Source: Blastococcus colisei (GTDB taxonomy: Bacteria > Actinomycetota > Actinomycetes > Mycobacteriales > Geodermatophilaceae). From it: a stretch of DNA of 64,000 bases. This document shows positions 1,176 through 55,790 of the stretch, one piece after another; the stretch's first letter is position 1, and every line of letters begins with the position of its first letter. The position numbers and the translations under genes were made by a program. Under the pieces are notes generated by a model, which saw only the letters and a list, made by a program, of their open reading frames with translations, ran no database searches and was not told the DNA's origin. The stretch is taken from positions 3,720,001-3,784,000 of the forward strand of contig NZ_VFQE01000001.1 in the NCBI RefSeq assembly GCF_006717095.1, read 5' to 3'.

Positions 1176-1962
1176 CCGATCCCCCCCGCTCGTCGGCGCT
1201 GCCTCGGAATGCACATCGTCCGCGTCCGTGCAGGTATTGCCCGCGCCAGTGTGGAGGGTGCCCCGCGGACTGGCGCCTCAACTGAACGACGCGCCAGAGC
1301 GGAGGGCCTAGACCGCGGCGACCCGTAGAGCACCAGACGACACCGAGCATTCCGGGAGCGCCTCGACACGGGCGAGCACCAGACATTCGACGCGATGAAA
1401 CCTGTGCCCGCGACACCTGACCGTCCGCGGCCACCGAGCGACGCCGGATGGCTCAGTCGCGAGAGGCCCCACTGCCTCGGCCAGCGGGGAGGCTGATCCT
1501 CGCCGGCGTAACCGGTCGTTGATCAACGTGACGGTGGGACCCGGATCCCGCGGGTCCCACACACTCGTGACCGCACGTCCACCGCGCCGTCACGGTGAAC
1601 AGCTTGCTCCACTCGCACGTCACCGACCGCGCACGATCCGCTTAAGCCTTCCCGACGCCGGGAGTGTGGTTGCCGAGCTGGTCAGGGACCTGCACAGCCT
1701 CGCTCGCCTGGTGCGGGGCTCCTGCGTCAACCGCAACCCAACTGATAGGTCAGGCCAGCACTCCGGCCCTCCTCGGACGCTGCCCGTCGACGTCACGACA
1801 CGGGCCCGGTGGCGCGGCGAGATTCGCGCCGACGTTGACCCACGGTCGTGGTCGATCAGCTGCGAGCGCGTGCCACTACCGGTTCCTGAACGCGCACGGC
1901 ACTCGACGACGGCCTTGGTCGCAATCTGTTCCCAGCCCCCGCCCGATCCCTGAGCCCTCCGG
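1176..1962. other. Intergenic region, no gene recognised
   Basis: About 790 bases between the kinase start and the tatB stop. Open frames exist on both strands, but their translations are arginine/proline-rich shadow-like sequence with no family resemblance. It must contain the kinase promoter. I see no repeat or terminator that I would defend. Confidence 0.5.
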
Positions 1963-16071: not shown

Positions 16072-16401
16072 TCAGTTGGCGGCTTCGTACGCCTCGACGA
16101 TGGCGCTCGGGATGCGGCCACGCTCGGAGACGTCATGCCCATTCTCCCGCGCCCAGGTGCGAATGACAGCGGTGTCCTGGCGGGCCCGGGCGCCGCGCCG
16201 CCCGGCGGACTGGCGACCGACCTTCCGGCCGGCCTCCACGTAACGCTTGAACAGCTGCCGCAGTGCGTCGGCGTCGTCCTTGGTCAGATCGATCTCGTAG
16301 GACGTGCCCTCCAGGGCGAAGCTGACCGTTTGACCCTGACCGTCCGGCAGTACCTGGCCGGTCAGGTCGTCCACGAGCACGACCTTCGTCTTCTGCGCCA
16401 T
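16072..16401 (-). CDS. lsr2: Lsr2-type nucleoid-associated protein
   Basis: 109-residue H-NS-like xenogeneic silencer. The N-terminal dimerisation part reads [15 protein letters not shown], then [20 protein letters not shown]. The C-terminal DNA-binding part has [20 protein letters not shown] and VEAYEAAN, with the AT-hook-like RGR that inserts in the minor groove of AT-rich DNA. Good Shine-Dalgarno (GAGGAG). Lsr2 represses horizontally acquired DNA. The same C-terminal module appears fused to an exonuclease at 50936-52603 in this window. Confidence 0.95.
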
Positions 16402-38369: not shown

Positions 38370-38527
38370 CAAATCACGGTCAACGTTTCCACTAAGCATT
38401 ACGCCGCTACCATGAATAGAAACTCCCCGTCGCAGGACTAAAGATCCGAAGGCCGGCGAAGGAGTAGCCCTAAAATCGCCACACACCTCATGCACTAATG
38501 GTTTTTCGCGGCTACCATCCGGGTGTG
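38370..38527 (+). other. A+T-richer segment upstream of the relaxase, candidate oriT
   Basis: The 160 bases before the relaxase have clearly more A/T than their surroundings. They contain a near-repeat CGC(C/G)GCTACCAT (38402-38413 and 38507-38518) and short runs of T and A. MobF relaxases normally nick at an oriT next to their gene. No nic site could be assigned by eye. Confidence 0.35.
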
Positions 38528-41500
38528 ATGTCGCTGCATAAGCTGTCGGCGGGGGACGGTTACGCGTACCTCACCCGGCAGGTCGCGGCGATGGATTCCA
38601 CCGAGCGAGGCCATGGCGGGCTCGGCGACTACTACTCGACGCGGGGCGAGTCGCCGGGGATATGGGCCGGTGCCGGGCTGGCCGGGCTGCAGGGTGTGGA
38701 GCCGGGACAGCCGGTGAGTGAAGAGCAGATGCAGGCTTTGTTCGGCCACGGCCGACATCCCAACGCCGCCGCACTCGAACGGGCGGCTGCTGCCTCCGGT
38801 CGAGACCGTGGGGAGGCAGCGGCCGCCGCCGCGCTGGGCCGGGCGTTCCCGGTCTTCGCCACTGCTGCGGACGGGTTCCGGGCCCGTTGTGCGGCGGAGT
38901 TCGGGGCGGTGAACGCCGCGGCCGGGCTCCCCGCCGGCGCGCCGGTGCCAGCCGACGAGCGTGCCCGGATCCGCACCGAGGTCGGCCGGGCCATGTTCGC
39001 CGAGGTGCACGGCCGCCTACCGGTGGATGCGCGGGAGCTGTCGGGATTCATCGCCCGCGCGTCCCGCCCGGCGACCACCGCGGTCGCCGGCTACGACCTG
39101 ACGTTCTCCCCGGTGAAGTCGGTGTCCGCCCTCTGGGCACTGGCCCCGAGGGAGATCGCCCAGCGCGTCGAGACAGCGCACCAGGCCGCGGTCGCCGACA
39201 CCCTGTCCTGGCTGGAGAAGGAAGCGTGCTTCACCCGCACGGGGACGGCCGGCATCCGGCAGGTCGAGACCACCGGATTCATCGCAGCGACGTTCACCCA
39301 CCGCGACTCCCGGGCCGGGGACCCCGAACTGCACACCCACGTCGCGGTGTCCAACAAGGTGCAGACCCGCGACGGAAAGTGGCTGGCGCTGGACGGGCGG
39401 GTCCTGCACAAGGCCAACGTCGCGGCCTCCGAGCGGTACAACACCCGCCTCGAAGCGCACCTGGTCGCCGGCCTCGGCGTCGCATTCGCCGACCGCTCCG
39501 GCACTGAGGCGGGCAAGCGGCCGGTGCGGGAGATCGTCGGCGTCGACGCCCGGCTGTTGACCGCCTGGTCGGCCCGTCGACGGGCGATCAACGCCCGCCG
39601 CGGCGACCTCGCGGCCGTGTTCGAGGCCGATCACGGACGCCCACCGACGGCGGTGGAGGCGATCGGGTTGGCGCAGCAGGCCACGCTGGAGACACGTGAC
39701 ACCAAGCACGAACCGCGGTCACTGGGGCAGCAGCGAGAAGCGTGGCGGCGGGAGGCGAGCGGCCTGATCGGCGGGCCACCCGGCATCGCCCGGATGCTCG
39801 ACCGCGTCCTCGCCCCGCACCGCCCCACTCCCTCGCCACGGGCAACCGATACCTGGGTGCGCAAGGCGGCCGAGCGGCTGCTGGAGACGGTCTCCGGGCA
39901 GCGGGCCACCTGGCAGTTCTGGCACGTCCAGGCAGAGGCCGAGCGGGTCGTCCGCGGCGCCGGTATCGCCCCGAACGACGTCGACACCGCCGTCACCCTC
40001 CTTGCCTCCGAAGCCCTGTCCCCCGGTCGTTCCATGCCGCTGGGCGACCGCGATCCGGTCGAGGAGCCGGCCGAACTGCGCCGCATCGACGGTGCCAGCG
40101 TCTACACCGTCGCCGGCTCCCGGCTCTACACCTCCCAGGCCGTCCTGGACGCCGAGCACCTGCTGGTGGCCGCCGCCGGGCGCACCGACGGCCGCCGCGC
40201 CGAGCCCACGGCCGTGGAGTGGGCGTTGCTCGAGTCGGCGGCCAACGGCGTCGTCCTCAACCCCGGCCAAGCCCACCTCGTGCGCCAGCTGGCCACCTCC
40301 GGCACCCGTTTGCAGTTGGCACTCGCCCCCGCGGGATCGGGAAAGACCACCGCCCTGGCGGTGCTGTCCCGGGCGTGGACCGACGGCGGAGGCACCGTGG
40401 TCGGCCTCGCACCCACCGCGGTCGCCGCGGCCGGACTCGGGCAGCAACTGGTCGGGCACTGTGACACCCTCGCCAAACTCACCTGGCACCTGCGCACCGA
40501 CGGCCAGCTGTCCGGGGCCGTCCCGGGATGGATCAGCGGCATCGGCCCGGGCACGATGGTCATCGTCGATGAGGCCGGGATGGCCGGCACCGTCGACCTC
40601 GCCACCGCCGTCGACTTCGTCCTCGGCCGCGGGGGCAGCGTGCGGCTGGTCGGCGACGACCAGCAACTCGCCGCGGTCGCCGCAGGCGGGGCGCTGCGCG
40701 ACATCGCCGACACCCACGGCGCGACCACCCTCTCCCAGCTGACCCGCTTCCACGACCCCGCTGAAGGGGCCGCGACCCTCGCGATCCGGGCCGGGGAGAC
40801 CGCCGGATTGGGGTTCTACCTCGACCACGGTCGGGTGCACGTCGGTGATGAGGCGACCGCCGCCGACCAGGCCTACGCCGCCTGGGCCGCCGACCACACC
40901 GCCGGCGTGAACGCGGTGATGCTCGCCCCCACCCGAGAACTGGTGGCCGGGTTGAACGCCCGCGCCCGCGCCGACCGACTCACCGCGACCGGCACGCCCG
41001 CCGGCCGGGAGGTAGAACTCGCGGACGGAAACCGGGCCAGCACCGGGGACCTGCTGGTCAGCCGCCGCAACGACCGTGCCCTGCCCATCACGCGCACGGA
41101 CTGGGTGAAGAACGGGGACCGGTGGACCGTGACCAAGGTGCACCGCAGCGGTGCTATCACCGCCGCCCACGCCGGCACCGGCCGCCGGGTCACCCTGCCC
41201 GCCGCCTACGTACGGGAGCACGTCGGGCTGGGCTACGCCTCCACGGTGCACGGCGCCCAAGGAATCACCGCCGACACCTGCCACACCGTGGTCACCGGCA
41301 CCGAGACTCGACAGCTGCTGTACGTGGCGGTGACCCGCGGCCGCGGTGCCAACCACCTCTACGTCACCACCGCCGGAGACGGCGACCCGCACGCCATCAT
41401 CACCCCGCACGCAGTCCGGCCACCCACCGCGACCGACCTGCTCACCGCCGCCCTCGCCCGCGACGGGGCGCCGCGTTCCGCGGCGAGCACCGGCCGCGAG

Positions 41501-44182
41501 CTCACCGACCCGGCCACCCGGCTACAGGACGCCGCGGCCCGCTACCGGGACGCCCTCGGTGTCGCCGCCGAAACCGCACTCGGCCCGGCGGGCATCGCCG
41601 CGCTGGACGCCGCCGCCGAACAGGTACGGCCAGGCCTCAGCCAGGCGCCGGGGTGGCGGACCCTGCGCGACCGCCTGGCGCTACTCGCCGTCGCCGGCCA
41701 CGACCCGATCACCGCGCTGCGGCAGGCGGCCGGCGGCCGGGAGCTGGACAGCGCCGCCGATCCGGCTGCAGTGTTGGACTGGCGCCTGGATCCCACCAGC
41801 GGTCAAGACCGGCCCGCTGGTCCGCTGCCCTGGCTGCCCGCAGTCCTGGCAGCGCTGGCCGGCCACCCGGAGTGGGGTCCCTACCTCGCCGCCCGCGCCG
41901 GGCACGTCACGAGCCACGCCGGCCGAGTCATCGAGGAAGCGGCGACGTGGACGCCGACCACCGCACCGGCCTGGGCGGCACGGCTGACCGAAACGGAGCA
42001 CGCGGGGCTGCGAGGGCAGCTGGCGGTGTGGCGGGCCGCGACCGGCGTTCCCCCGGCTGACCGGCGACCCACCGGTCCCCCACAGCTTGCCGCCGCCGAG
42101 CGGCGACACCAACGCCGGCTGGACGCCGCCGTCACGACTGTGCTGGGGGCGGCGGGCGCGGCCGCCCGCTCCTGGGCAGCGGTGGCCGACAGCATCGATC
42201 CACGGATCAGCCACGACGAGCACTGGACCGACCTGGCCGATCGGCTCACGACGGCCGACCGTGCCGGAATCGACGTCGCCAGCCTGCTGATCGCCGTGAC
42301 CGGCGAGCGGCCGCTGCCCGACGACCTGCCTGCCGCCGCCCTGTGGTGGCGGCTGTCGGCGCACCTGTCCCCCGCTGCTCTCACCAGCGACGGGCTCGAC
42401 GCGGCCACGCTGCACCCTGCCTGGATCGCCGCGCTCGGGGACGCGGTGACGCCCGAGCGCGCGCAGCGGGTGGTGGCCGACCCGGCCTGGCCGGCCCTGG
42501 TCGCCGCGGTCACCACCGGTACCCGCGGCGGCTGGGATCCCGCCGAGCTGATCACCGCAGCGGCCAGCGGCCTTCCCCAACGCGGCGGCCCACGGATGCC
42601 GTCGGGCGATCTCGCCGCCGCCCTGGTCTTCCGGGTGTCGATGCTCACCGACCCCACCCCGGTCACGGTCGACGAACCTCTGCCGGCCGACCTACGACCG
42701 CCCGACGACGTGCACCTGCTGGCACCCGCAGCCGATCCTGAGACGGCGACGGTGATCGACCGGTGGCCGACCGGGGCGCTCGACGTGGACGTGGAGCCGC
42801 CGTTCGACCCCGACTTCGACCGCGTGCCCCCCGACACGGCCGACGACACCGCACCCCGCGACCGTGGCCTCCCGTATGTGACGCCCGACCCCTTCGCCAG
42901 GAACGAGACCCCAGGCGACTCGGACCCTGCCGACTATCTACTTGAGGAGCACTTCTGGGCCACCGCCACCGTCGGTCGCCAGCGCTTGATCGAGCTGAAC
43001 CAGCAGGCCGTCGAGTACTTCGCCGACCGCTACCCCGACTCCTGGGCGCCGGCCTACCTGCAAAGCCGGCTCGGCACCGACCTGACCGGCGACACGAGAT
43101 TCAGCCCCGGCTACGCGCCCGCCGGCTGGACCACGCTCACCGACCACCTACGCTCCGACGGCGCCACAGACGAGGAGATCCTGGCCGCCGGACTCGGCGT
43201 CCGGGCGCGCACTGGCCGGGTCATCGACCGGTTCCGCGACCGGCTCACCTTTCCCATCCACGGCCCCGACGGCGCAGTCCACGGGTTCATCGGGCGCCGC
43301 AATCCAGCCCGCGACGATGCCGGACCTAAGTACCTGAACACTGCCGGCACCGATCTGTTCAGTAAGGGCGCGCAGCTGTTCGGCCTGCACGAAGGCGGCG
43401 ATGCGCTGGCCGCCGGCGCCGCCCCCGTGCTCGTCGAGGGACCATTGGACGCGATCGCGACCACCCTCGCAGGCGATTGCACCTACGTCGGCGTCGCCAC
43501 CCTGGGAACCGCGTTCAACGACCGGCAAGCTGACCAACTGCTCCCCTACCTTGGCGGGCGGTCCGGCATCGTCGTTGCGACCATCGTCGCGACCGACGCC
43601 GACACAGCCGGACAGCAAGCGGCCGAACGCTCGTACTGGCAGCTCGCCGCCCGCGGCGACGACCCCCGCCGGCTGCCCATGTCCGAGGGGTACGACCCTG
43701 CCGACATCCTGAGCACCGGCGGCCCAGGTGCGCTCCGCGAGTTGCTGGATGAGTCCGGCAGCCTGGCCGAACACCTCATCGACCGGATGATCACCGCTAC
43801 GCCCGCCGATCCCGTGGGGGCCGCAACGACCATCCACGCCGCTGCCGAGATCATCGCTGCGCTGCCGCCGACCCGATGGCTGCACCACGCCGACCGGGTC
43901 ACCGCTGCGCTTCAGAAAGCGCCGGGAAGCGTCCACCAAGCCGTCCTGAACGCCGACCACGCCCGGAAACTCGACCCCGCTGGGCAGACCCAAGCGGGAA
44001 GGCGCACCACCGCCTATGACCTCTTGCCCACACCCAAGTCGGTCTTCGAGCCACCCGTCCCCTTGCCGATCCAGCAGAATTACCCGGCCACGGCCTCCAC
44101 GCCAGACCGGCGCTCCGACGGCCATGACTCACCACCGTCCCTCAGCAAGGACCGCGACCGGCCCACCGGCATGGAACGGTGA
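38528..44182 (+). CDS. MobF relaxase-helicase-TOPRIM (TrwC/TraI-type) conjugation protein
   Basis: 1,884 residues. The start ATG 38528 gives the usual MobF beginning (MSLHKLSAGDGYAYLTRQVA). The relaxase domain has the tyrosines of GGLGDYYSTRGESPG and the metal-binding HxH in DPELHTHVAVSNKV near residue 268. The helicase part has Walker A APAGSGKTTALAVL near 600, VIVDEAGMAG near 678, VRLVGDDQQLAAV, and late motifs including HGAQGITADTCHTVV and LYVAVTRGR near 911. Unusually, a DnaG-type part follows: VEYFADRYPDSWAPAYLQSR, FRDRLTFPIHGPDGAVHGFI, KYLNTAGTDLFSKG, then TOPRIM VLVEGPLDAI (about 1634) and IVATDADTAGQQAA (about 1687). It would nick and unwind plasmid or ICE DNA and may prime the transferred strand. 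No VirB/T4SS or coupling protein gene is in the window. Confidence 0.93.
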   Translation: MSLHKLSAGDGYAYLTRQVAAMDSTERGHGGLGDYYSTRGESPGIWAGAGLAGLQGVEPGQPVSEEQMQALFGHGRHPNAAALERAAAASGRDRGEAAAAAALGRAFPVFATAADGFRARCAAEFGAVNAAAGLPAGAPVPADERARIRTEVGRAMFAEVHGRLPVDARELSGFIARASRPATTAVAGYDLTFSPVKSVSALWALAPREIAQRVETAHQAAVADTLSWLEKEACFTRTGTAGIRQVETTGFIAATFTHRDSRAGDPELHTHVAVSNKVQTRDGKWLALDGRVLHKANVAASERYNTRLEAHLVAGLGVAFADRSGTEAGKRPVREIVGVDARLLTAWSARRRAINARRGDLAAVFEADHGRPPTAVEAIGLAQQATLETRDTKHEPRSLGQQREAWRREASGLIGGPPGIARMLDRVLAPHRPTPSPRATDTWVRKAAERLLETVSGQRATWQFWHVQAEAERVVRGAGIAPNDVDTAVTLLASEALSPGRSMPLGDRDPVEEPAELRRIDGASVYTVAGSRLYTSQAVLDAEHLLVAAAGRTDGRRAEPTAVEWALLESAANGVVLNPGQAHLVRQLATSGTRLQLALAPAGSGKTTALAVLSRAWTDGGGTVVGLAPTAVAAAGLGQQLVGHCDTLAKLTWHLRTDGQLSGAVPGWISGIGPGTMVIVDEAGMAGTVDLATAVDFVLGRGGSVRLVGDDQQLAAVAAGGALRDIADTHGATTLSQLTRFHDPAEGAATLAIRAGETAGLGFYLDHGRVHVGDEATAADQAYAAWAADHTAGVNAVMLAPTRELVAGLNARARADRLTATGTPAGREVELADGNRASTGDLLVSRRNDRALPITRTDWVKNGDRWTVTKVHRSGAITAAHAGTGRRVTLPAAYVREHVGLGYASTVHGAQGITADTCHTVVTGTETRQLLYVAVTRGRGANHLYVTTAGDGDPHAIITPHAVRPPTATDLLTAALARDGAPRSAASTGRELTDPATRLQDAAARYRDALGVAAETALGPAGIAALDAAAEQVRPGLSQAPGWRTLRDRLALLAVAGHDPITALRQAAGGRELDSAADPAAVLDWRLDPTSGQDRPAGPLPWLPAVLAALAGHPEWGPYLAARAGHVTSHAGRVIEEAATWTPTTAPAWAARLTETEHAGLRGQLAVWRAATGVPPADRRPTGPPQLAAAERRHQRRLDAAVTTVLGAAGAAARSWAAVADSIDPRISHDEHWTDLADRLTTADRAGIDVASLLIAVTGERPLPDDLPAAALWWRLSAHLSPAALTSDGLDAATLHPAWIAALGDAVTPERAQRVVADPAWPALVAAVTTGTRGGWDPAELITAAASGLPQRGGPRMPSGDLAAALVFRVSMLTDPTPVTVDEPLPADLRPPDDVHLLAPAADPETATVIDRWPTGALDVDVEPPFDPDFDRVPPDTADDTAPRDRGLPYVTPDPFARNETPGDSDPADYLLEEHFWATATVGRQRLIELNQQAVEYFADRYPDSWAPAYLQSRLGTDLTGDTRFSPGYAPAGWTTLTDHLRSDGATDEEILAAGLGVRARTGRVIDRFRDRLTFPIHGPDGAVHGFIGRRNPARDDAGPKYLNTAGTDLFSKGAQLFGLHEGGDALAAGAAPVLVEGPLDAIATTLAGDCTYVGVATLGTAFNDRQADQLLPYLGGRSGIVVATIVATDADTAGQQAAERSYWQLAARGDDPRRLPMSEGYDPADILSTGGPGALRELLDESGSLAEHLIDRMITATPADPVGAATTIHAAAEIIAALPPTRWLHHADRVTAALQKAPGSVHQAVLNADHARKLDPAGQTQAGRRTTAYDLLPTPKSVFEPPVPLPIQQNYPATASTPDRRSDGHDSPPSLSKDRDRPTGMER

Positions 44183-44695: not shown

Positions 44696-46735
44696 CTACA
44701 GCTTGGCTGCGATGTCGTCACGGACCTCGTCGGCGATGGCGTCGAGCTTGGTGTACGCGCGTTCGAGGTCATCGGCGGACGCCTGCTCCCGGTCCACCCC
44801 GACCTCGTCGGACACCGCCTTGTTCAGCAGCCGCGTCACGATCTGTGTGTTCGGGCCCATCGGGCCCTTTACGATCTTCGCGAGCTGCCGCCCCTGCCGG
44901 GGGAGATTCAAGCCATCCAGGACCCGGTTTGCGACCGACCCGACCCGTTGGTTCAGCCGCTTGCGGGCCGACTGACGGCGACGCTGTGGAGACACTGGGA
45001 TAGCGGTCGGGACGTCGGACGGCCGCTCGGCCTGCTTCGCCAGCAGCGCTGTCCGCAGCTGTTCCAGCGTGGTGAAGTCACCGATCTTCAGCCCCGGAGC
45101 GACCTCCTTGGCCAGCATTTCCTCAAGCACCCGGTCATCGGTCGGGTCCAGGTAGGCCTGGTCGATGAAGTTGCTCAGGATCTCGCTGTTCACCAGCATG
45201 CCCTGGTCGAACCGCCGGGACTGCGGCTCGCCGGTCGACTCTGCCGGCTCGGCATCGTCCTCGTTCCCGGCGACCCACCCGTGGATGAGCTCCTGGTCGT
45301 CCAGGTCGAGTTCACGGAACTCCGACCATCGCTCATCGTTGTTCAGACCGACGTGCGACACCACGTGCCCCTGGTTGTCGGGGTGCTCGGGCTTGCTCTC
45401 CTGAATCACCCGCATGACCCGGCCGACGAACTGGATGTACGGCGCCAGCGAACGGAACGGCCGGAAGATCGCCCCGACGCTCAACCTCGGGTGGTCGAAC
45501 CCCTCGCCAAGCATCTGGACCTGCACGATGCAGTCCAGCGCACCGGTCCGCAGCCGCTCGAGGACCGCCTCCTGCTCGTCTTCGTCCATGTCAGAGTGGA
45601 TTTCCGCCGCCCGGTACCCGCACTCCACATATAGCGCGGCAACCTGCCGGGCGTGGTCGACTGAGCACGCCGCCGCGATCACTTGGTGCTTCACTCCGGT
45701 GGCGGCGCGCATCGCATTGCACTGCTGGATGCTGGCTTCGACGATGTGCCGGTTGCACTCCGGGCTCAGGGCGACACCGCGCCGGAACCATGCCTCCTCG
45801 CGTAGCTCGAGAACCTCCTCCAGGGTGTGTTTGACGGAGGTGTCGTCGCTGTAGGTGAAGTACAGCTCGGCCGGCGCGACGTTCCGGGAGTGGATCTGCT
45901 TGATGTAGCCGTTCACCATCGCCTTGGTGAACGAGAACTTGTACAGCAGTTTGCCGTGCATCTGCTTCTCGTCGGCCCGGAACGGCGTCGCGGTCAGGCT
46001 GACCACCTTCGCTTCCGGGAACCGCCGGAAGACCTTCTGCCAGCTCTCCGCCGGGGCGTGGTGGCCCTCGTCTACCAGGATCATGTCGAAGAAGTCGGGC
46101 GGGAATTTCGGCAGCCACCGGTCGGCACTACTTGCGAGCTGCTGCACGTTCGTCACGACGAAGTCGCTCTCGATGGCGTCGTGCACATTCGCCGCCGGCC
46201 CGTCCAGCACCGCAGTCCACGGGCCCGCCGTAAAGTCCGACAGGACGCGCATTTTCGTCCAGAAGCACTCCCGGCTCGTGACGTCCAGTGCCGCCTGCAC
46301 GCCTTTGCGGATCGTCAGATTCGGCGTGATCACGAGCACCCGACCCTCAGCGATGCCGAACGGCAGGGTCGACATGATGCCGGTCTTCCCGCAGCCCACC
46401 GGGATCTGCAGGATGCCGGGCTCGTTGGAGGACGCGAAGTGTTCCCGTACCGCCTTGTGCGCCTGCCGCTGCGGCTCGCGCAGGAGGTCGTTTGCCTCGA
46501 TGTCCGCGTTAGCGGTCGCGAAGATCGACACCTTTCCGGCCGCGTCCTGCGCACGGCGGTACTCCAGTCGGAACTCTTCCAGGTCCGCCCGCCGGAAGTA
46601 GCGGTGACTGCTGCCCGGCCGCTTTACCGCCGGGAGCCGCCCATCGCGGTCCCAGCGCCGCAGCGTCTGGGCGGACACGCCCACGTACTGGGCGGCCGCG
46701 GCCACACGCATGAACTCGGTCTCGTCCTCTTGCAC
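44696..46735 (-). CDS. MerR-type HTH fused to SF2 (DEAD/DEAH, ResIII-like) helicase
   Basis: 679 residues. Residues about 8-50 are an excisionase/MerR-like winged HTH (FMRVAAAAQYVGVSAQTLRR, WDRDGRLPAVKRPGSSHRYF). The helicase follows: motif I ILQIPVGCGKTGIM near 112, Ia VLVITPNLTIRKG, II MILVDEGHH near 225, III VVSLTATPFRADE, IV region AACSVDHARQVAALY, V CIVQVQMLGEGFDHP and VI QFVGRVMRVI near 437. The last 230 residues are helical and unassigned. Motif II is DEGH, not DEAH. It resembles the R subunit of restriction systems but has no nuclease domain. Its position in an island with HEPN, PIN and exonuclease genes suggests phage/plasmid defence or element control. The GTG start lies right at the predicted transcription start. 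Confidence 0.88.
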   Translation of the reverse strand: MQEDETEFMRVAAAAQYVGVSAQTLRRWDRDGRLPAVKRPGSSHRYFRRADLEEFRLEYRRAQDAAGKVSIFATANADIEANDLLREPQRQAHKAVREHFASSNEPGILQIPVGCGKTGIMSTLPFGIAEGRVLVITPNLTIRKGVQAALDVTSRECFWTKMRVLSDFTAGPWTAVLDGPAANVHDAIESDFVVTNVQQLASSADRWLPKFPPDFFDMILVDEGHHAPAESWQKVFRRFPEAKVVSLTATPFRADEKQMHGKLLYKFSFTKAMVNGYIKQIHSRNVAPAELYFTYSDDTSVKHTLEEVLELREEAWFRRGVALSPECNRHIVEASIQQCNAMRAATGVKHQVIAAACSVDHARQVAALYVECGYRAAEIHSDMDEDEQEAVLERLRTGALDCIVQVQMLGEGFDHPRLSVGAIFRPFRSLAPYIQFVGRVMRVIQESKPEHPDNQGHVVSHVGLNNDERWSEFRELDLDDQELIHGWVAGNEDDAEPAESTGEPQSRRFDQGMLVNSEILSNFIDQAYLDPTDDRVLEEMLAKEVAPGLKIGDFTTLEQLRTALLAKQAERPSDVPTAIPVSPQRRRQSARKRLNQRVGSVANRVLDGLNLPRQGRQLAKIVKGPMGPNTQIVTRLLNKAVSDEVGVDREQASADDLERAYTKLDAIADEVRDDIAAKL

Positions 46736-48945: not shown

Positions 48946-49659
48946 GTGACCATGACCTGGGGGGTGCCGCTGGACGCCGAGAAGGCACTCAACTGGCCAG
49001 TCGACCGCGTCGCGCTGCACCTACTGGCCGGCTTCAAACGCGGCGGCGAGCAGCACTGGCACAACTTCCTAAACTCCGCCGCACAGGCCTACCAGCGCAA
49101 TGGCTTCCCGGCGCAGGATTCTCACCGGATCACCCAGGCACTCGCCGAGGCTTATGACTGGCTCATCATTCACGGGCTGTTGTCCGGCATCCCCGGCAAG
49201 GGCGAATGGCTGTTCATCACCCGCAGGGGGCTCGGCGTCTTGGACGCGGACGATGGGCTCACGCTCATCCGGGCCGAGGCCCGGCTTGACGTAGACCTCC
49301 ATCCCCGAATCGCCACCAGGGTTCGCACACAGTTCCTGCTTGGCGAGTATGAGCTCGCAGCCCTCGCCGCCATGAGAGAAGTCGAGATTCGCGTACGGGA
49401 GTTGGCCGGAGCCCAAGCGCGCGACATCGGTGTAGGGCTGATGCGGCAGGCCTTCAAGCCGGAGGGCGGCCCGCTAACCGACGCCACAGCGGACAAGGGC
49501 GAGCAGGAGGCGCTGTCAGCGCTGTTCGCCGGGGCGATCGGCGTCTTCAAGAACCCCGTGAGCCATCGCCAGGTCGACTACGAGGACCCGACGTTGGCGT
49601 CCGAAGTCGTCCTCTTGGCCGACCTGCTGCTGCGCATCCTCGACACGCGGAGCGGCTGA
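48946..49659 (+). CDS. TIGR02391 (Ymh) family protein
   Basis: 237 residues. N-terminal half with EQHWHNFLNSAAQAYQRNGF and GKGEWLFITRRGLGVLDADD (winged-helix-like). The C-terminal half carries the TIGR02391 core: ELAALAAMREVEIRVRELAG, AFKPEGGPLTDATADKGEQE, ALFAGAIGVFKNPVSHRQVD. The FKNPVSHR signature is typical of this family, which has been grouped with HEPN proteins and is frequent in defence islands. GTG 48946 lies about 7 bases after TACCCT, a plausible -10 box, so this mRNA may be leaderless. ATG 48952 is the alternative start. Confidence 0.85.
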   Translation: MTMTWGVPLDAEKALNWPVDRVALHLLAGFKRGGEQHWHNFLNSAAQAYQRNGFPAQDSHRITQALAEAYDWLIIHGLLSGIPGKGEWLFITRRGLGVLDADDGLTLIRAEARLDVDLHPRIATRVRTQFLLGEYELAALAAMREVEIRVRELAGAQARDIGVGLMRQAFKPEGGPLTDATADKGEQEALSALFAGAIGVFKNPVSHRQVDYEDPTLASEVVLLADLLLRILDTRSG

Positions 49660-49698
49660 TCAGCCTGGGTCGGCTTCTCTTCGCCATGCGGGACGTCG

Positions 49699-50883
49699 CT
49701 ATGAGCGCTCGGCGCCGGCAAGGCGCTCTTCGATCGCTGGCACGGCGTCACGGAGCCGCCGAAACACCAGCGCTGGCCGTCTCAGGCGCTTGAGACCCTG
49801 GGTCAGCACGTTGCCCATGTGACGCTCGCACACGACGAAGTCCGCGTACCCGGCTGCACAGGACAGGTAGACCATGTCCGTCAGGTCGTTGTGCCTCCAA
49901 ACCGTTCCCTTATTGAGGTGCCGTTCGTGCAACATCTCGCGGAATACGCCCGTCGTGGGGAGTTTCGGAATGTCCTCGAACAACTGGTCCGGTAACCAGT
50001 CCTGGAATTGCCTCAGGGTCCCGCCTGCCGCGTGAGCCTCCTCCGCCAATTCTGTCCGGAGGTCCGATAGAAGTAGGGCATCGATGGACTTGCGCTTCTG
50101 CTGGGAGGTGCGATCCACGCCGTCCAGCCAGTCGCTGAATTGCTGGTTCGCCATCGCCCAGCCGGTATCTGGGCCCGGCTCGATCCGTTCGGCGTCCAGC
50201 ATGACGTCGATCAGGGCTGTGGCGGACGTCAGCGCCTGGTGTTGGAACGCCGCGTCCGGGGGGAGGTCAGCCGGGGGCACGTAGGGCGTTCCACCGCGCC
50301 AGTGGCCGTGCAGGACGTCAGGCATGAGGGTGAAGACGGCCGCGTTCCGAGATCCGGCTGTCCCTGCGAAACTGCAGAACGCGTCGTGGAGCTCGTCGCG
50401 CCGCACTTGGACGGGGTCACGCATCTGCCAGCCCCGGCTGAGTTGGAGAACCGTGAGGCCGAGCGCGTACCGCTTCTTCTCGTCGAACCGTTTGGTGGTC
50501 TCGTAGTAGTGGCCAGAGGACGCCGGCAAGACGATCTTCCGCTGCTGCACCCACTCGGCGAGTTGTCGTGCGGCATCACGCTCTTCGTCGGCGACCTTGG
50601 CCGGATCGTGCCGGGCGCTGGCGACGGCGCTCCACTGGTTCTGGTCTAGGTACACCACAAGGCGTCCGGCGAGCTGTTCGCCGCTGCTTGACTTCGGAAG
50701 TTCGAACACGATGTCGTCACCTGAGCGCGTGGTCGCCAGGAGGCCGTCAAAGGACGGCGTGACGTGCAGGCGGGACAGAGCGCTGGTTTCAGCGAAGGGT
50801 GAATCCCCGAGCGGGAACCGGGCCTCCTTGCCGTCCGAGCGTGTGAACACGACCGAGGACGTCTCGCGATCCATCGTGATCAT
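49699..50883 (-). CDS. PIN-like nuclease domain protein
   Basis: 394 residues from ATG 50883 (GTG 50913 or ATG 50874 also possible). The first ~70 residues form a small DUF2442-like beta domain (SDGKEARFPLGDSPFAETSA). A PIN-type fold follows with LVVYLDQNQWSAVASA (first catalytic Asp), PASSGHYYETTKRF, and near the C-terminus WRHNDLTDMVYLSCAAGYAD, then FVVCERHMGNVLT, where the acidic pair and last strand of PIN nucleases are expected. The order of elements is that of large PIN-like proteins rather than VapC toxins. It lies 22-52 bases behind the exonuclease-BRCT-Lsr2 gene on the same strand, so they are probably co-transcribed. Confidence 0.75.
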   Translation of the reverse strand: MITMDRETSSVVFTRSDGKEARFPLGDSPFAETSALSRLHVTPSFDGLLATTRSGDDIVFELPKSSSGEQLAGRLVVYLDQNQWSAVASARHDPAKVADEERDAARQLAEWVQQRKIVLPASSGHYYETTKRFDEKKRYALGLTVLQLSRGWQMRDPVQVRRDELHDAFCSFAGTAGSRNAAVFTLMPDVLHGHWRGGTPYVPPADLPPDAAFQHQALTSATALIDVMLDAERIEPGPDTGWAMANQQFSDWLDGVDRTSQQKRKSIDALLLSDLRTELAEEAHAAGGTLRQFQDWLPDQLFEDIPKLPTTGVFREMLHERHLNKGTVWRHNDLTDMVYLSCAAGYADFVVCERHMGNVLTQGLKRLRRPALVFRRLRDAVPAIEERLAGAERS

Positions 50884-50935
50884 CGTGATAACCGGGTGGT
50901 GCGCGTCGTCCACAGCTGACGGCCGGTGCGACCGG

Positions 50936-52603
50936 TCAGGCCTGGCCGGTCGCCTCGTGCGCGCGGTGGTAGGCCTCCACCAGCTCCGCTGGCAGGCGGC
51001 CCCGTTGACCGACCTCGTGGCCGTTCGCGCGGGCCCAGGCCCGCACAGCCGCCGGGGAGATGGCCGCATGCGTCTCCAGCGCGATGCCCGCTGCAGCAGG
51101 TCGAGGAGCGGGTGATCTGACCGTCGTGTTCCCCGCGGTACGCGGCCGCGGGAACGGGGCCCGCGCCTTCTTGACCGCCGGCTGCAGGTGCTTGAGCAGG
51201 ACTGCGAACTCGTCGGGGTGAATACAGCGCGTGCCATGACCGGCGGCCTCGTCGGCCTTTCCGCCGCAGAAGCTGCCGTCGGTGACCAGGAGCGCCGTGC
51301 GGGACGAAACGTTGTTCATCACCCGCACGCCGAGCTTCTCGGCGCGCAGTTCCAGTCGCTCCCGCACCGTCCACTCGCAACCGGTGAAGGCGACCTTGTC
51401 GCCGACCCGCAACGGGTCACCGAGCGCCCAGTCAGCAGGCAGCGGGCGCAGCCCTGCGGATAGCCGCTCGCGGCGCGCGGCCTCGGCGGCGTCGAGGGTG
51501 ACCGTAACCAGCTTCGCCGACACGTCGATCATCTCCGCGGTGGCGGTCAGTTCCGCCTTCTCTGCCCGGCTCACCTTGCCGTCGTCGAGCGCGAGGTGTG
51601 CGAGCGCGAGCAGGAAGCCGCGGTGGGCGGCGTGGACGGCGTCGCCGTCGAGGTCGTAGATGGAGGCCACGTCGACCAGTGCCGCCCGCTCGTCGTCGGT
51701 GAGGACACCGTCCTCGAGCACCTCGGCCAGCAACTCGAGGTAGGCCAGCGAGCCCTCAGGTGCACCTTCGTCGAGAGCGTCGGCGAGGCGGAAGTCCTCA
51801 AGCAGCGTGACCAGCGACGGCGCGGGCGGCGCGGCGGCCCACGTCGCGATCTTGCGCTGTGCCTGGATGGGTAGACCGGCGGCGGGCGGGCGCACGCCGC
51901 CAGGCGCGGTCGGCCAGGCCACGGCCCAACCTTGGTGCGGGAGGTCGAGCAGCTCGCGGCGCGGCGGCCGGCCGAAGGTCGGGTCGAGGTAGTTGGCGAG
52001 TAGCCGCGCGGTGGCGCGGGCGTCGTGAAGGGCGGAGTGCGCGCGGTGCAGCGAGATTCCGACGGCATCGCAGCAGTCGGCCAGGCGGCGGCGGTTGAGG
52101 TGTGGCAGGTGGTCCCAGCTGTGCTCGAGAGTGCAGGCAGCGGGCAGGTGCGGCAGCGCCCAGCCGGCGCGGGCGTACTCCGTGCGCAGGAAGGCCAGGT
52201 CGAAGGTGACGTTGTGCCCGGCGATCGCCGCTCCGGCGAGCCGGGTGCTGATCTCGGGCAGCACGTGGGCGAACCGCGGCGCACCCATCACGTCGGCGTC
52301 GCGGATGCCGTGGATATGCGTGGCGCCGACCGGACCTTCGGGGTCGAACCGGCACACCCACTCGTCCAGCACCCGCCCGCCGGAGTCGGTGCGCACGATG
52401 GCCATTTCCAGGATGCGGTGGCTGTTCGCCGACAGGCCGGTGGTCTCCACGTCGATGACCGCGAACCCCGGCAGCGGCCCGGACGCCGCGGGCGCCGTTG
52501 CGGGTGAGCGCCGAGGAGGCGGCACGGGCGGCAATGACGACAGCCGGGGCGTCACAGGCACAGGTACCGACTTGTGCTTGCGAAATCTGTCGAAGAAGCC
52601 CAT
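50936..52603 (-). CDS. DEDD exonuclease-TerB-BRCT-Lsr2 fusion protein
   Basis: 555 residues. After a proline-rich leader the DnaQ-type domain (about 45-200) has AVIDVETTGL (D51/E53), GHNVTFDLAFLR and HSALHDARATARLL, the complete DEDDh set. Residues about 270-390 are helical and acidic, TerB-like (EVLEDGVLTDDERAALVDVA, HLALDDGKVSRAEKAELTA). A BRCT domain follows at about 400-480 (VGDKVAFTGCEWTVRERLEL, ALLVTDGSFCGGKADEAAGH). The last 40 residues (AAVRAWARANGHEVGQRGRL, then VEAYHRAH) match the DNA-binding domain of Lsr2, including the RGR minor-groove hook; compare [16 protein letters not shown] in the Lsr2 at 16072-16401. It should be a nuclease targeted to AT-rich, foreign-like DNA (inference). 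GAGGGTGAGC precedes the ATG. Confidence 0.9.
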   Translation of the reverse strand: MGFFDRFRKHKSVPVPVTPRLSSLPPVPPPRRSPATAPAASGPLPGFAVIDVETTGLSANSHRILEMAIVRTDSGGRVLDEWVCRFDPEGPVGATHIHGIRDADVMGAPRFAHVLPEISTRLAGAAIAGHNVTFDLAFLRTEYARAGWALPHLPAACTLEHSWDHLPHLNRRRLADCCDAVGISLHRAHSALHDARATARLLANYLDPTFGRPPRRELLDLPHQGWAVAWPTAPGGVRPPAAGLPIQAQRKIATWAAAPPAPSLVTLLEDFRLADALDEGAPEGSLAYLELLAEVLEDGVLTDDERAALVDVASIYDLDGDAVHAAHRGFLLALAHLALDDGKVSRAEKAELTATAEMIDVSAKLVTVTLDAAEAARRERLSAGLRPLPADWALGDPLRVGDKVAFTGCEWTVRERLELRAEKLGVRVMNNVSSRTALLVTDGSFCGGKADEAAGHGTRCIHPDEFAVLLKHLQPAVKKARAPFPRPRTAGNTTVRSPAPRPAAAGIALETHAAISPAAVRAWARANGHEVGQRGRLPAELVEAYHRAHEATGQA

Positions 52604-52914
52604 TGCTCACCCTCCGTCGTTGGTCGACCGCGAGACAGCATGTCAGCACGCGACGACAGCACGATGCTTTTCGGTGCCCGCAGGTTCCGGTGAGTCCTCG
52701 ACGGGTGCGGCCAGCCGACACCTGGGCAGCAGCCGGGTTGCCTTGCGAGACTGACGGCCAATTGCCTCGGCCCGGCGGTCGTCGCCTCAGCGGGTTGGGC
52801 ATACGGGCGCATGGACGATGTAAGGCAGGCGCGGCGTCTCTAGGCCGAAGCGGAGCGATCGAACCAGTCCCGGCGAGCCGCTCGCCTGTGGGTTAGCTTC
52901 GGCAGACTGGCCCC
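52604..52914. other. Divergent intergenic region
   Basis: About 310 bases between the exonuclease fusion and a plus-strand membrane protein. It should hold both promoters. No repeat or gene is seen. Confidence 0.4.
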
Positions 52915-53508
52915 ATGAAGCCGAGTCAGCGGTACTTGCAGGACTCCAACCTGATGATGGAGTTCCGCAACGCCTACGTGGAGCTGATCAACCACGCTTA
53001 CGCGGTCCCTACGGGCCTCACCCTGACGGTACTTAAGGCGGCGCCTGGGGTGAGCCAAAGCGAGTGGACGCGGCTCTACTCGGAGGTGTCCCAGGCAGCC
53101 GGCGCCGCGGCATCCGCCTATCCCCGATATGGCGGAACCTTCACTCTGCGCAATGCGGCGTACATCATGAACAACGTTGACCCGGTCGCGAACTGGCAGA
53201 TGAGCATCCAGGACCCGCAGCAGCTCGAACCGACAACGGTCGTCTCCACCGTCGAGGCCGCGATTTCCCGGTCGCGGCAGGCGTCGGTAGAGGCAGCCGA
53301 ACGTGAAAGCGGACTGACTGGCCTACTCGCGGCGTTCCTCCGCTGGCCGTCCAACCTCCGCGAGGCTGTGGGGCCCGATCGCTCGGCGCAACGCACCGCA
53401 GCCGGAGTCATCGGCATACTTGGCCAGATCCTGGTCGGGATCGTCGCTTCGCTGTTGGCGGCGGGCCTGATCGCGGGAGGCGTTGCGCTCTGGGGGACAG
53501 TGTTCTAG
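52915..53508 (+). CDS. Hypothetical protein with C-terminal membrane helix
   Basis: 197 residues. The N-terminal ~150 residues are soluble and helical (LMMEFRNAYVELINHAYAVP, LYSEVSQAAGAAASAYPRYG, AAYIMNNVDPVANWQMSIQD). The C-terminus is one or two membrane segments (AAGVIGILGQILVGIVASLL followed by AAGLIAGGVALWG). This is a tail-anchored layout of the kind seen in some defence effectors, but no family is recognised. Confidence 0.65.
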   Translation: MKPSQRYLQDSNLMMEFRNAYVELINHAYAVPTGLTLTVLKAAPGVSQSEWTRLYSEVSQAAGAAASAYPRYGGTFTLRNAAYIMNNVDPVANWQMSIQDPQQLEPTTVVSTVEAAISRSRQASVEAAERESGLTGLLAAFLRWPSNLREAVGPDRSAQRTAAGVIGILGQILVGIVASLLAAGLIAGGVALWGTVF

Positions 53509-53664: not shown

Positions 53665-54870
53665 TCAGGTGGCGCCGAGTTGGACATCGAGCTGCCGTTG
53701 ATCCCCCAGCACACGAAGCAGCGGGGTCAGCAATCTGGTCAACACGTCGTCCGGCCGGTCGACCAGCTCGCCGGTCGTGGTCGTCGTTGACCACAGGTAC
53801 TCGTTTTCTGGGTAGGCGGTCCCCATGGCCCAGAACCGGTGGCCGTCTCCGTGGGCCTTCACGCCTTGAAGCCCGGTCACGACCACCGCGGCGTCCCACT
53901 GACCGCCATAGCCTGCGTAGTCGGCCAGGCGCGCGGCCAGCCGCAGCGTCTGGCGGGGAAGTGCCACCACTGCCTTGGTCGACAACCAGCGTTTCGTCGA
54001 GCCGGTCTCCGTTTCTGTGAAGACCAACGTCGTGACGGTGAGGGCCACTCGGCCGTCGTCACGTAGCGAGACCGCCTTTCCATGCAGTTGGCTGAAGTCG
54101 GAGGACGCGACCGCGTCGCCCAGCGGGACATTGCTGATATCCAGACCACGCAGCGTCAGTCGGCTCTGTGAAAGAGCCTCCAGGTTCCAGCCGGTCCTAT
54201 CCGTAGCGCAGACCTCGTTGACGAGCTGCTGAAGTTGGAACGGCTCCTCGAGAAAGTCTCGCAGCGCGCCGTGCTGGCCGGCGCGGGGAGTCAGCAGCAC
54301 ATGCAGGCTCCCGGGAATGGCCAACGGACCAGCATCGACATATTGCCTGACGACTTGCATGAAGTCTTCTCGCTGCTGAGCGTTGAGGGCCAGGAGACGA
54401 CGCACATCCGCGTCGATCAGCGGGCGCTTACCAGTGGCACCGCGGCCCCAGTAGCGCTCGTCGACCATGTGCGGCGCCTCGGGGCTGGCGTCAACAGTGA
54501 CGAGCAAACAGCCGCGACCCGGGCGAGTCGGGTCCACGATGGGAACAGGACGGACCACAAGAGGTGGGTGCACCCGGTCGCGAGCGACTTGGTCGACCCT
54601 GTCGGCCAGATCCGCCAGCTCGACGCCGCTGACAGCGCCGGCCCTGCCTTTGTCGTCTTCGATGCCAATGATCAACAAGCCGCCGTCTACGGCCAGTGAC
54701 GCCAAGTCTCGGGCCAGTTCCAGGTTGGCGGGCTTGGAATGCGCAGGCAGTGCCGCCTTCAACTCGACCCACTGCGTCTCATCGAGGGTGCCGGCGACCG
54801 CAGCGTCCACGACGTGCCGCCAGGTGTCCGGTGTCCACCGTGTCCGATGAGGACCGAGGTAGTAGCTCAT
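53665..54870 (-). CDS. AlbA_2 (Schlafen-type) domain protein
   Basis: 401 residues from ATG 54870, chosen for GGAGGAGC upstream; the frame is open further. The N-terminal AlbA_2 domain is clear: ETQWVELKAALPAHSKPANL, then DLASLAVDGGLLIIGIEDDK. It continues with HPPLVVRPVPIVDPTRPGRG and HMVDERYWGRGATGKRPLID, where such proteins end the domain. The rest (residues about 190-400) is a soluble domain with WNLEALSQSRLTLRGLDISN and no recognised fold. AlbA_2 proteins are nucleotide- or RNA-associated and often sit in defence islands. Confidence 0.85.
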   Translation of the reverse strand: MSYYLGPHRTRWTPDTWRHVVDAAVAGTLDETQWVELKAALPAHSKPANLELARDLASLAVDGGLLIIGIEDDKGRAGAVSGVELADLADRVDQVARDRVHPPLVVRPVPIVDPTRPGRGCLLVTVDASPEAPHMVDERYWGRGATGKRPLIDADVRRLLALNAQQREDFMQVVRQYVDAGPLAIPGSLHVLLTPRAGQHGALRDFLEEPFQLQQLVNEVCATDRTGWNLEALSQSRLTLRGLDISNVPLGDAVASSDFSQLHGKAVSLRDDGRVALTVTTLVFTETETGSTKRWLSTKAVVALPRQTLRLAARLADYAGYGGQWDAAVVVTGLQGVKAHGDGHRFWAMGTAYPENEYLWSTTTTTGELVDRPDDVLTRLLTPLLRVLGDQRQLDVQLGAT

Positions 54871-55114
54871 CAGCCCATGCTCCTCCGTCTGCATCCCGAC
54901 CAACGCCACTCTGACAGTCAGCGGCACCAGGTGAGACGGCTCCGCTGCCCCCACTGTGCCGGGGCGCGCTTCTCGACCGATCTGTCAGCTCTCGGCGATC
55001 CGATGCGAGAAGCCTCCACCCGTTCACGTCCGCGAGGCGGCAACGGCGCCCGGCGCCCGGTATCCCGCAAGGGAACCTCCTGCGGCACCTCGCGATCGGC
55101 CATGCAGTCGTGGC

Positions 55115-55171: not shown

Positions 55172-55790
55172 TCACCCGCGAATGCTCGCGCTGTTCGACG
55201 CTGCTCGGTGACCGTTCGTCTGGTCGCGTTGCAATGCCCGGTAGACGGTGGAGCGGGCGACGCCGAACAGATCGGCCAGCTCGGCGGTGCTGTGCTCGCT
55301 CCGCCGATAGAGGTCTACCAGGTGTGCTTCCTGGCGGGGGTTGAGCTTGGGCTGCTTCCCGCGGAGTCTCCCCTTGGCCTTGGCCACCCGCATGCCTTCC
55401 TTCGTACGGACGCGGAACAGGTCGGATTCGAACTCGGCGACCATGGCCAGCACGTTGAACAGCAGTCGCCCGACCGGGTCATGCGGGTCGTACACCGCGC
55501 CGCCGAGGCTCAGCCGCACCTGCCGCCGGGTGAGCTCCTCGGCGATCGCCCGGGCGTCGGGCAGCGAGCGAGCCAGCCGGTCGAGCTTGGTCACCACCAG
55601 GGTGTCGCCCTCCCGGCAGGCGGCCAGCGCCTCCCGCAGCCCGGGGCGCTCTCGGTTGGTGCCGGTCAGGCCGTGGTCGACGAGAGCCGCCCCGGATCCA
55701 CTCCGAGTGTGAGCAGTCCCTCGCGTTGGGCGGTCAGGTCCTGGGCGTCGGTGTCCATCGTCCGTCCCAGGGCGCCGAACCGCTCAGGGG
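55172..55790 (-). pseudogene. Frameshifted serine recombinase (Tn3-type resolvase)
   Basis: The minus strand reads GALGRTMDTDAQDLTAQREG, then LLTLGVDP, then after a frame change near 55693 LVDHGLTGTNRERPGLREAL, AACREGDTLVVTKLDRLARS and VRLSLGGAVYDPHD. It continues in frame to the helix-turn-helix STAELADLFGVARSTVYRAL. The 141-residue C-terminal part (55172-55597) is a clean open frame. In the N-terminus the family has GYARVSTDxQ; here the catalytic Ser position is Asp (TMDTDAQ), so even repaired it would probably be inactive. Confidence 0.8.

Follow-up and report, generated by a model that had tools for sequence, protein, structure and literature searches.

An Lsr2-Tailed DEDDh Exonuclease Gene in Blastococcus colisei, a Candidate Accessory Nuclease That Moves between Genomes

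Why would an exonuclease end in the DNA-binding domain of Lsr2? The question is raised by a gene (P0001) in a 64,000-nt stretch of the Blastococcus colisei genome (assembly GCF_006717095.1, contig NZ_VFQE01000001.1, positions 3,720,001 to 3,784,000), which we call the window and whose numbering we use throughout; G-labels denote genomes and L-labels extracted loci. Xenogeneic silencers read base composition to silence foreign genes, and a nuclease with the same reader, if that is what this protein is, would turn recognition into destruction. By its profile matches, the gene is a new, Lsr2-tailed variant of the candidate defence family PDC-S48. The explanation that we favor, with a probability of about 50%, is that it encodes a stand-alone, horizontally moved accessory nuclease acting at DNA ends, with the Lsr2 tail as an anchor on double-stranded DNA (dsDNA), and that it probably serves defence.

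Domain architecture

The gene and its predicted domains are as follows.

50936 to 52603, reverse strand: exonuclease gene P0001 (DEDDh, TerB-like, BRCT, Lsr2 tail), ATG start, 555 amino acids (aa), from the open reading frame (ORF) and its translation
51992 to 52465, reverse strand: DEDDh 3'-5' exonuclease domain, residues 47 to 204 (Pfam RNase_T; PDB matches to PolC, DinG and Pol III epsilon)
51470 to 51817, reverse strand: TerB-like region, about residues 263 to 378 (weak Pfam TerB match)
51179 to 51412, reverse strand: BRCT domain, about residues 398 to 475 (Pfam BRCT in family members; profile matches to 1l7b and 2ebu)
51062 to 51172, reverse strand: fast-evolving linker, residues 478 to 514 (mean pairwise identity, 25%)
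50957 to 51058, reverse strand: Lsr2 DNA-binding domain, residues 516 to 549, with RGR at 534 to 536 (Pfam PF23359; PDB 6qkq, 6qkp and 2kng)

The original prediction, made from the letters of the window, described a complete DEDDh exonuclease, and this was confirmed: Pfam RNase_T covers residues 49 to 202 with an E value of 2.5e-22, and the active-site residues D51, E53, D135, H189, and D194 (D-x-E, D, H-x4-D) do not vary among the 11 aligned sequences. Searched against the PDB, a family profile built from 11 members (A1) matched exonucleases of the DnaQ type and Lsr2, as well as the BRCT domains of RFC1 and DNA ligase. The NCBIfam DEDDh exonuclease model PRK06063 gives the window protein 156.2 bits, under its curated cut-off of 389.

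The two central domains had been predicted as well, and both hold at the level of the family rather than of the single protein. For BRCT, the window protein falls short of the Pfam cut-off (E = 0.0039; 17.8 bits versus 21.3), and 10 of the 11 aligned members match at E ≤ 0.1 (best, 8.5e-6; the L064 copy scores 26.4 bits). For TerB, the window protein scores 13.6 bits (E = 0.084) under a gathering score of 24.4, and again 10 of 11 members match at E ≤ 0.1, never strongly (best, 0.0017). Because the TerB match lies below the cut-off, we call the central region only TerB-like. A single-sequence AlphaFold2 model of the protein (mean predicted local distance difference test score, 38.5) lent no structural support, and a promoter and terminator scan of positions 49600 to 52950 found none.

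In the family profile search, the BRCT domain came nearest to those of DNA ligase (1l7b, E = 1.5e-4) and RFC1 (2ebu, E = 3.2e-4), and residues K449, T407, G408, and R414 are invariant in all 11 sequences. BRCT domains of the RFC1 and ligase type are linked to 5'-phosphate ends, and HIRAN domains of the HLTF type to 3' ends. This kinship speaks for a different role, in which the protein is a host DNA-repair or end-processing exonuclease: BRCT, joined by HIRAN in some genomes, would find ends or stalled forks, DEDDh would trim the 3' strand, and the tail would be a general dsDNA anchor for processivity. We regard this as a serious but somewhat unlikely alternative.

The Lsr2 tail and its linker

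The predicted C-terminal Lsr2 DNA-binding module with its RGR motif proved sound. Pfam Lsr2_DNA-bd (PF23359) matches residues 516 to 548 with an E value of 1.7e-14 (53.3 bits versus a cut-off of 26.9), and when searched alone, the tail hits solved structures of the Lsr2 DNA-binding domain (6qkq, 6qkp, and 2kng) with E values of about 2e-9, in alignments that span RGR. R534-G535-R536 is kept in all 10 tail-bearing members of the 11-sequence alignment. According to the available text of PMC6936261, Lsr2 uses this motif of its C-terminal domain to bind AT-rich minor grooves. By this analogy, the tail probably anchors the protein on DNA, a real preference for AT-rich DNA is somewhat favored, and recruitment to AT-rich invading DNA, as originally proposed, is plausible.

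Among 10 sequences, mean pairwise identity is 65 to 69% in the DEDDh domain, the BRCT domain, and the tail (65% in the tail) and 25% in the linker. The linker has 30 to 50 residues in 12 of the 14 tail-bearing copies measured and about 320 in the other 2, described below.

Distribution and phylogeny

Relatives are present in 17 other genomes (18 with that of the window), and one further Actinokineospora record has a stop codon in the middle of the gene. Members of this clade score 325 to 1242 bits against the window protein, and tail-less three-domain paralogues at most 179; searches in the family of G245 and the order of G459 were limited to E = 1e-90, so that scores below about 300 bits would not appear there. 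The clade occurs in 6 of 112 Geodermatophilaceae genomes, 5 of 249 in the order sample, and 5 of 296 in the class sample, the window genome being counted each time, as well as in 5 of 200 genomes of the family of G245 and 5 of 248 of the order of G459; these samples overlap. So rare and patchy a gene fits poorly with a role in host repair, as does the match of its core to a PADLOC defence candidate. Among the plasmid and phage matches listed, query cover reached at most 74% and 42%, respectively, and no record covered 80% in one place.

In a maximum-likelihood tree of the core, the clade stands apart from five paralogues with support of 100/99, although the tree program gave a warning of a long branch (L016) at the join. 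The tail is present in 15 of the 18 complete copies, and the other three (in G473, G659, and G695) stop after BRCT. Since these tail-less copies branch at two separate places inside the clade, the history of the tail fits one gain followed by two losses.

Conservation of the catalytic residues, which the original prediction had expected of homologs, extends to 15 of the 18 complete copies. The other three belong to one genus (G836, G799, and G862; loci L144, L145, and L146/L153): A-x-K or A-x-R replaces D-x-E, and the histidine is lost. Their tail motif reads RGA rather than RGR, so that 12 of 15 tails have an intact RGR, and two of the three copies (L144 and L145) carry the linkers of about 320 residues. 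These degenerate copies look repurposed. Because the only lineage that lost RGR also lost its catalytic residues, the pattern suggests, from one lineage only, that hook and nuclease work together.

Mobility and selection

Has the gene traveled with its surroundings or by itself? A blastn comparison of the whole window with loci L001 and L075 outlines a putative mobile unit.

50903 to 52728, no strand assigned: mobile unit

Across the 17.7 to 19.9 kb that surround the gene in Blastococcus sp. CT_GayMR19, whose protein is 91 to 92% identical, similarity to the window (E ≤ 1e-3) is confined to this interval, at 91.5%. The shared DNA of about 1.8 kb comprises the gene, 125 bp upstream, and 33 bp downstream. 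Because similarity extends over these 1.8 kb only, the gene has, by this comparison, moved alone relative to the CT_GayMR19 copy. Such movement of at least one copy between unrelated sites is a further point against a repair function. A search for flanking repeats gave none that could be read as ends of a mobile unit.

A second unit, of 2.6 kb, is common to the copies in G086 and G102 (loci L071 and L073), which also share a separate 485-bp match elsewhere. It consists of the exonuclease gene and one neighbor.

L071, 11449 to 12039, and L073, 11530 to 12156, strand not stated: HIRAN-domain gene adjoining the exonuclease gene, inside the 2.6-kb unit

A co-moving neighbor was seen in this pair only. 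A HIRAN partner beside two close copies favors the host-repair role, and so does the L064 protein (952 to 1479, reverse strand), in which an extra stretch after the Lsr2 tail is weakly HIRAN-like (Pfam E = 0.052; blastp to the HIRAN neighbor, E = 0.004). A PDB search with this extension matched no HIRAN chain; because the Pfam-confirmed HIRAN neighbor gave none either, that search decides nothing, and the HIRAN-like call remains weak.

With shared genes counted at E ≤ 1e-5, no neighbor was common to all 12 loci compared. Seven genes are common to L001 and L070 (32 to 49% identity), by eye a tad-pilus set for which no family search was made. The other shared neighbors are a resolvase in the window and G459 (67%), a small protein in L071 and L073 (78%), and another in L002 and L079 (37%).

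The ratio of nonsynonymous to synonymous substitution rates (dN/dS) of the core is 0.11, 0.17, and 0.22 in three pairs, and from these values the gene is under purifying selection.

Genomic neighborhoods

The genes around P0001, and the one Lsr2 gene that served as a control for profile detection, are listed below.

49699 to 50913, reverse strand: gene call for a 404-aa protein without a convincing family match; its start lies 22 nt past the exonuclease stop
48946 to 49659, forward strand: Hypoth_ymh (TIGR02391) protein (Pfam E = 3.8e-24; NCBIfam E = 2.8e-25)
44696 to 46735, reverse strand: MerR helix-turn-helix and ResIII/helicase protein (Pfam ResIII E = 2.6e-24)
38498 to 44182, forward strand: TrwC/MobF-type relaxase-helicase, marking a conjugative element (67% identity over 1154 aa to the L072 protein)
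53665 to 54954, reverse strand: AlbA_2/Schlafen-domain protein (Pfam SLFN_AlbA_2 E = 4.6e-8)
55172 to 55597, reverse strand: truncated serine resolvase (Pfam Resolvase E = 4.8e-17, profile positions 69 to 144 of 145 only)
16072 to 16401, reverse strand: Lsr2 with dimerisation and DNA-binding domains (Pfam; PF11774 E = 9e-22)

The original prediction placed the gene in an island of conflict-type genes. The relaxase, the resolvase fragment, and the Hypoth_ymh, AlbA_2/Schlafen, and ResIII helicase genes bear this out in part, although an excess of defence genes around the clade is not significant (see below). In the resolvase, the first half of the catalytic domain is missing, and this gene is the one with a 67% relative near the G459 copy; a DUF4145 match in the island is sub-threshold. 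The guanine-plus-cytosine (GC) content of the window ranges from 66 to 77%.

The window relaxase was identified through its L072 relative (Pfam TrwC E = 1.9e-92). Relaxases 67% identical to each other lie within 5 to 7 kb of both the window copy and the G016 copy. Their presence would suit a gene that serves a mobile element by processing or protecting its own ends, removing competing elements, or countering host silencing by competing with Lsr2 for AT-rich sites. A phage precedent exists in a Ku-Lsr2 protein, which helps to circularise phage DNA according to the available text of PMC8612146. However, a relaxase was identified at only 2 of 12 loci (no systematic search covered the others), and other copies lie by CBASS, Wadjet, or metabolic genes, so we consider this explanation very unlikely.

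The 404-aa gene may be co-transcribed with the exonuclease gene here. Its longer ORF form has no Pfam or NCBIfam match and a weak PADLOC match to UzuA (E = 0.046); the protein has no PADLOC match at E ≤ 0.001, and its best PDB match has an E value of 0.57. A YLDQN stretch in its first quarter may resemble PIN-like nucleases. A conserved operon of the two genes was considered and rejected, since none of the other 11 loci compared has a relative of the 404-aa gene, which also lacks a convincing family match.

At other loci, several neighbors are striking. The CT_GayMR19 copy begins 196 bp past a cyclic-oligonucleotide-based antiphage signaling system (CBASS) set of cyclase (E = 4e-167), E2 (E = 3e-58), and one-transmembrane (1TM) effector (E = 6e-67), and a HamB/PDC-M23B helicase lies further upstream of that set. 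In G086, Wadjet III JetA3 and JetC3 begin about 2.6 kb from the gene; the G364 copy neighbors PDC-S37 (PADLOC, E = 9.5e-276). The gene beside the G016 copy has NACHT matches below the threshold (E = 6.5e-5), and the relaxase follows further out. A gas-vesicle gene, GvpK, adjoins the tail-less copy in G473, and no defence gene could be placed by the PADLOC scan at the Actinokineospora locus.

As a separate observation, the position of the gene directly behind the CBASS set (L001, 5680 to 9659) could make it an accessory CBASS gene at that locus.

A possible mode of action and the points against it

How might the parts work together? In the explanation favored here, the RGR hook of the Lsr2 domain would bind in the minor groove of dsDNA, preferably where it is AT-rich, as inferred from Lsr2. 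The rest of the protein, free to move on the flexible linker, would search the surroundings, and its BRCT domain, of the ligase/RFC1 kind, would dock on a DNA end or nick, a ligand suggested by the relatives of that domain. The DEDDh domain, whose active site is present, would then trim the 3' strand, while the TerB-like region might, as a guess, regulate or oligomerise the enzyme. Because linear phage or plasmid DNA that enters a GC-rich cell has both ends and AT-rich stretches, the protein would most likely degrade foreign DNA and so act as a single-gene second line of defence next to systems like CBASS or Wadjet. The idea of an AT-reading nuclease can be tested with one gene, one motif (RGR), and defined DNA.

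Several observations weigh against this explanation, and the first concern its substrate. DEDDh exonucleases depend on a free DNA end and are unable to open a DNA circle. Actinobacterial phages can match the GC content of their host, as the available text of PMC8002715 reports for CL31. A scan of viral contigs for close relatives found none.

Others concern the tail. The three tail-less copies keep their active site, and because of this the tail is, from these copies, dispensable. In the tail (34 codons), dN/dS is 0.94, 0.31, and 0.22 in three pairs; the closest pair thus has a tail without sign of constraint on these counts, the value of 0.94 coming from very few changes. The window protein has no Pfam match at E ≤ 1 to the N-terminal dimerisation domain PF11774. 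The original prediction had named PF11774 as the Lsr2 profile that should match the C terminus; the profile that does match is PF23359. Because the true Lsr2 at 16072 to 16401 gives a PF11774 match in the same scan and the window protein does not, the latter is, by profile, not itself an Lsr2. For silencing by Lsr2-type proteins, DNA binding alone is insufficient and oligomers are needed, according to the available text of PMC7074111 and PMC7002338.

The tail might instead direct the protein to acquired chromosome regions coated with host Lsr2, where it would maintain or clear silenced DNA instead of meeting invaders. The binding module is the same as that of Lsr2, and the genome encodes two Lsr2-sized proteins with the domain; however, the window protein, which lacks the oligomerisation domain, would face competition from Lsr2, and we hold this role to be highly improbable.

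The remaining objections come from genomic context. Copies in G659 and G695 share neighbors, as do those in G836 and G799, and because these pairs keep common neighbors, not all copies look mobile. Homologs had been expected to lie outside housekeeping contexts, and this applies to the three near CBASS, Wadjet III, or PDC-S37 and fails for the tail-less genes of G659 and G695, which adjoin isocitrate lyase (Pfam-checked in G659 only) and share malate and tryptophan synthase genes, identified by eye. Two tail-less copies among metabolic genes favor the host-repair role, which also gains from an ERCC4-type nuclease with the same tail and from published Ku-Lsr2 fusions, which act at DNA ends according to the available text.

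Defence genes around the clade were counted in 135 neighboring genes at 12 loci (L147 to L153 lay outside this PADLOC scan), drawn from 160 called genes; those below about 100 aa were dropped, and sets A2 and A3 were taken without their first members, which are family members. The control consisted of 11 regions at round coordinates in the same genomes, in which 132 of 164 called genes, those ending by 15 kb, were scanned. Three of the 12 loci had a placed defence gene (5 if two unplaced hits, PD-Lambda-1 and SoFic, sit elsewhere) versus at least 1 of the 11 control regions, and the excess is not significant (Fisher P = 0.59 for 3 of 12 and 0.155 for 5 of 12). Raw counts of PADLOC families were 65 in the control versus 44 and 8 in the neighbor sets, own-family hits included; the families named are the first 25 for A2 and A4. 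Control hits include a methyltransferase, GajB, DndA/SspA, and mad3, of which the last three are, in our judgement, likely housekeeping relatives. The case for defence thus rests on mobility, rarity, the PDC-S48 match, and a few striking neighbors, not on statistics; on this sequence evidence, we put a defence role at even odds.

Comparison with known systems and other Lsr2 fusions

The closest known entry is PDC-S48, a phage defence candidate of PADLOC-DB 2.0.0. Its model PDLC05027 matches residues 45 to 473 of the window protein (profile positions 4 to 408 of 411; E = 1.9e-127), and the clade member L062 matches it with an E value of 2.4e-129. Unlike the window protein, the model stops before the Lsr2 tail. 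The name PDC-S48 was not found in the open literature searched.

Tail-less DEDDh-TerB-BRCT paralogues (for example, at C1:1582938 in the window genome) have the same core order and mostly 33 to 40% identity. They differ in having no Lsr2 domain in the copies extracted, in forming a separate clade, and in their neighbors, adjoining a NERD-UvrD helicase gene in genus g2. Five g2 genomes (G004, G005, G009, G019, and G022) carry a gene for an ERCC4-Lsr2 protein at a distance of about 0.8 to 12 kb from such a tail-less paralogue. In four of the five, the paralogue adjoins a gene with a similar product start, which is a NERD-UvrD helicase in G019, the only one scanned. The ERCC4-Lsr2 protein of G019 (L114, 4577 to 5536) resembles the window protein in joining a nuclease domain (ERCC4, E = 1.1e-12) to a C-terminal Lsr2_DNA-bd domain (E = 1.7e-13), but it has the ERCC4 fold and no match in the window genome. 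It is matched in 23 of 112 Geodermatophilaceae genomes, in 22 of which the match reaches the tail; the copies in G004 and G065 have internal stops, and that in G065 misses the tail. No paper naming both ERCC4 and Lsr2 was found in the open literature searched.

The PADLOC type II methyltransferase model matches only the tail of the window protein (residues 516 to 551; model positions 536 to 571 of 587; E = 4.7e-5), and because its match is restricted to the tail, this profile seems to contain an Lsr2 DNA-binding domain too. A bolder reading would make the domain a plug-in reader of foreign DNA in actinobacteria, carried by DEDDh-TerB-BRCT and ERCC4 nucleases and perhaps by a methyltransferase and directing them to AT-rich invaders, for an innate immunity based on base composition rather than on sequence or modification; we think it rather unlikely.

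Further proteins of this kind were noted in passing. One combines an Amphi-Trp-like N terminus with the Lsr2 DNA-binding domain (L076, 4358 to 5008, and L122, 4213 to 4920; Pfam-checked in L076 only), and a protein with this fusion is encoded in the window genome. Another, of 261 aa (L127, 3268 to 4053), ends in the domain after a middle part that appears coiled-coil-like by eye; it is encoded in G473, whose exonuclease is tail-less. The two Lsr2-sized proteins of the window genome have 110 and 114 aa (the 114-aa frame is on contig C2), and the one checked has both Lsr2 domains.

The Lsr2 xenogeneic silencer itself shares with the window protein the DNA-binding domain and RGR but has the N-terminal dimerisation domain that the latter lacks. 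The titles and abstract beginnings of the open literature searched describe no Lsr2-nuclease fusion, and there the theme of Lsr2 as a module was found for Ku only. In the available text of PMC8612146, Ku-Lsr2 of cluster J mycobacteriophages likewise carries an Lsr2 C-terminal domain with RGR behind a DNA-end protein; unlike the window protein, it is phage-encoded, its partner is Ku rather than a nuclease, and the DNA that it helps to circularise is that of incoming phage genomes. Even if the exonuclease described here had a role in repair, the Lsr2 DNA-binding domain would appear as a module common to several DNA enzymes, from DEDDh and ERCC4 nucleases to phage Ku.

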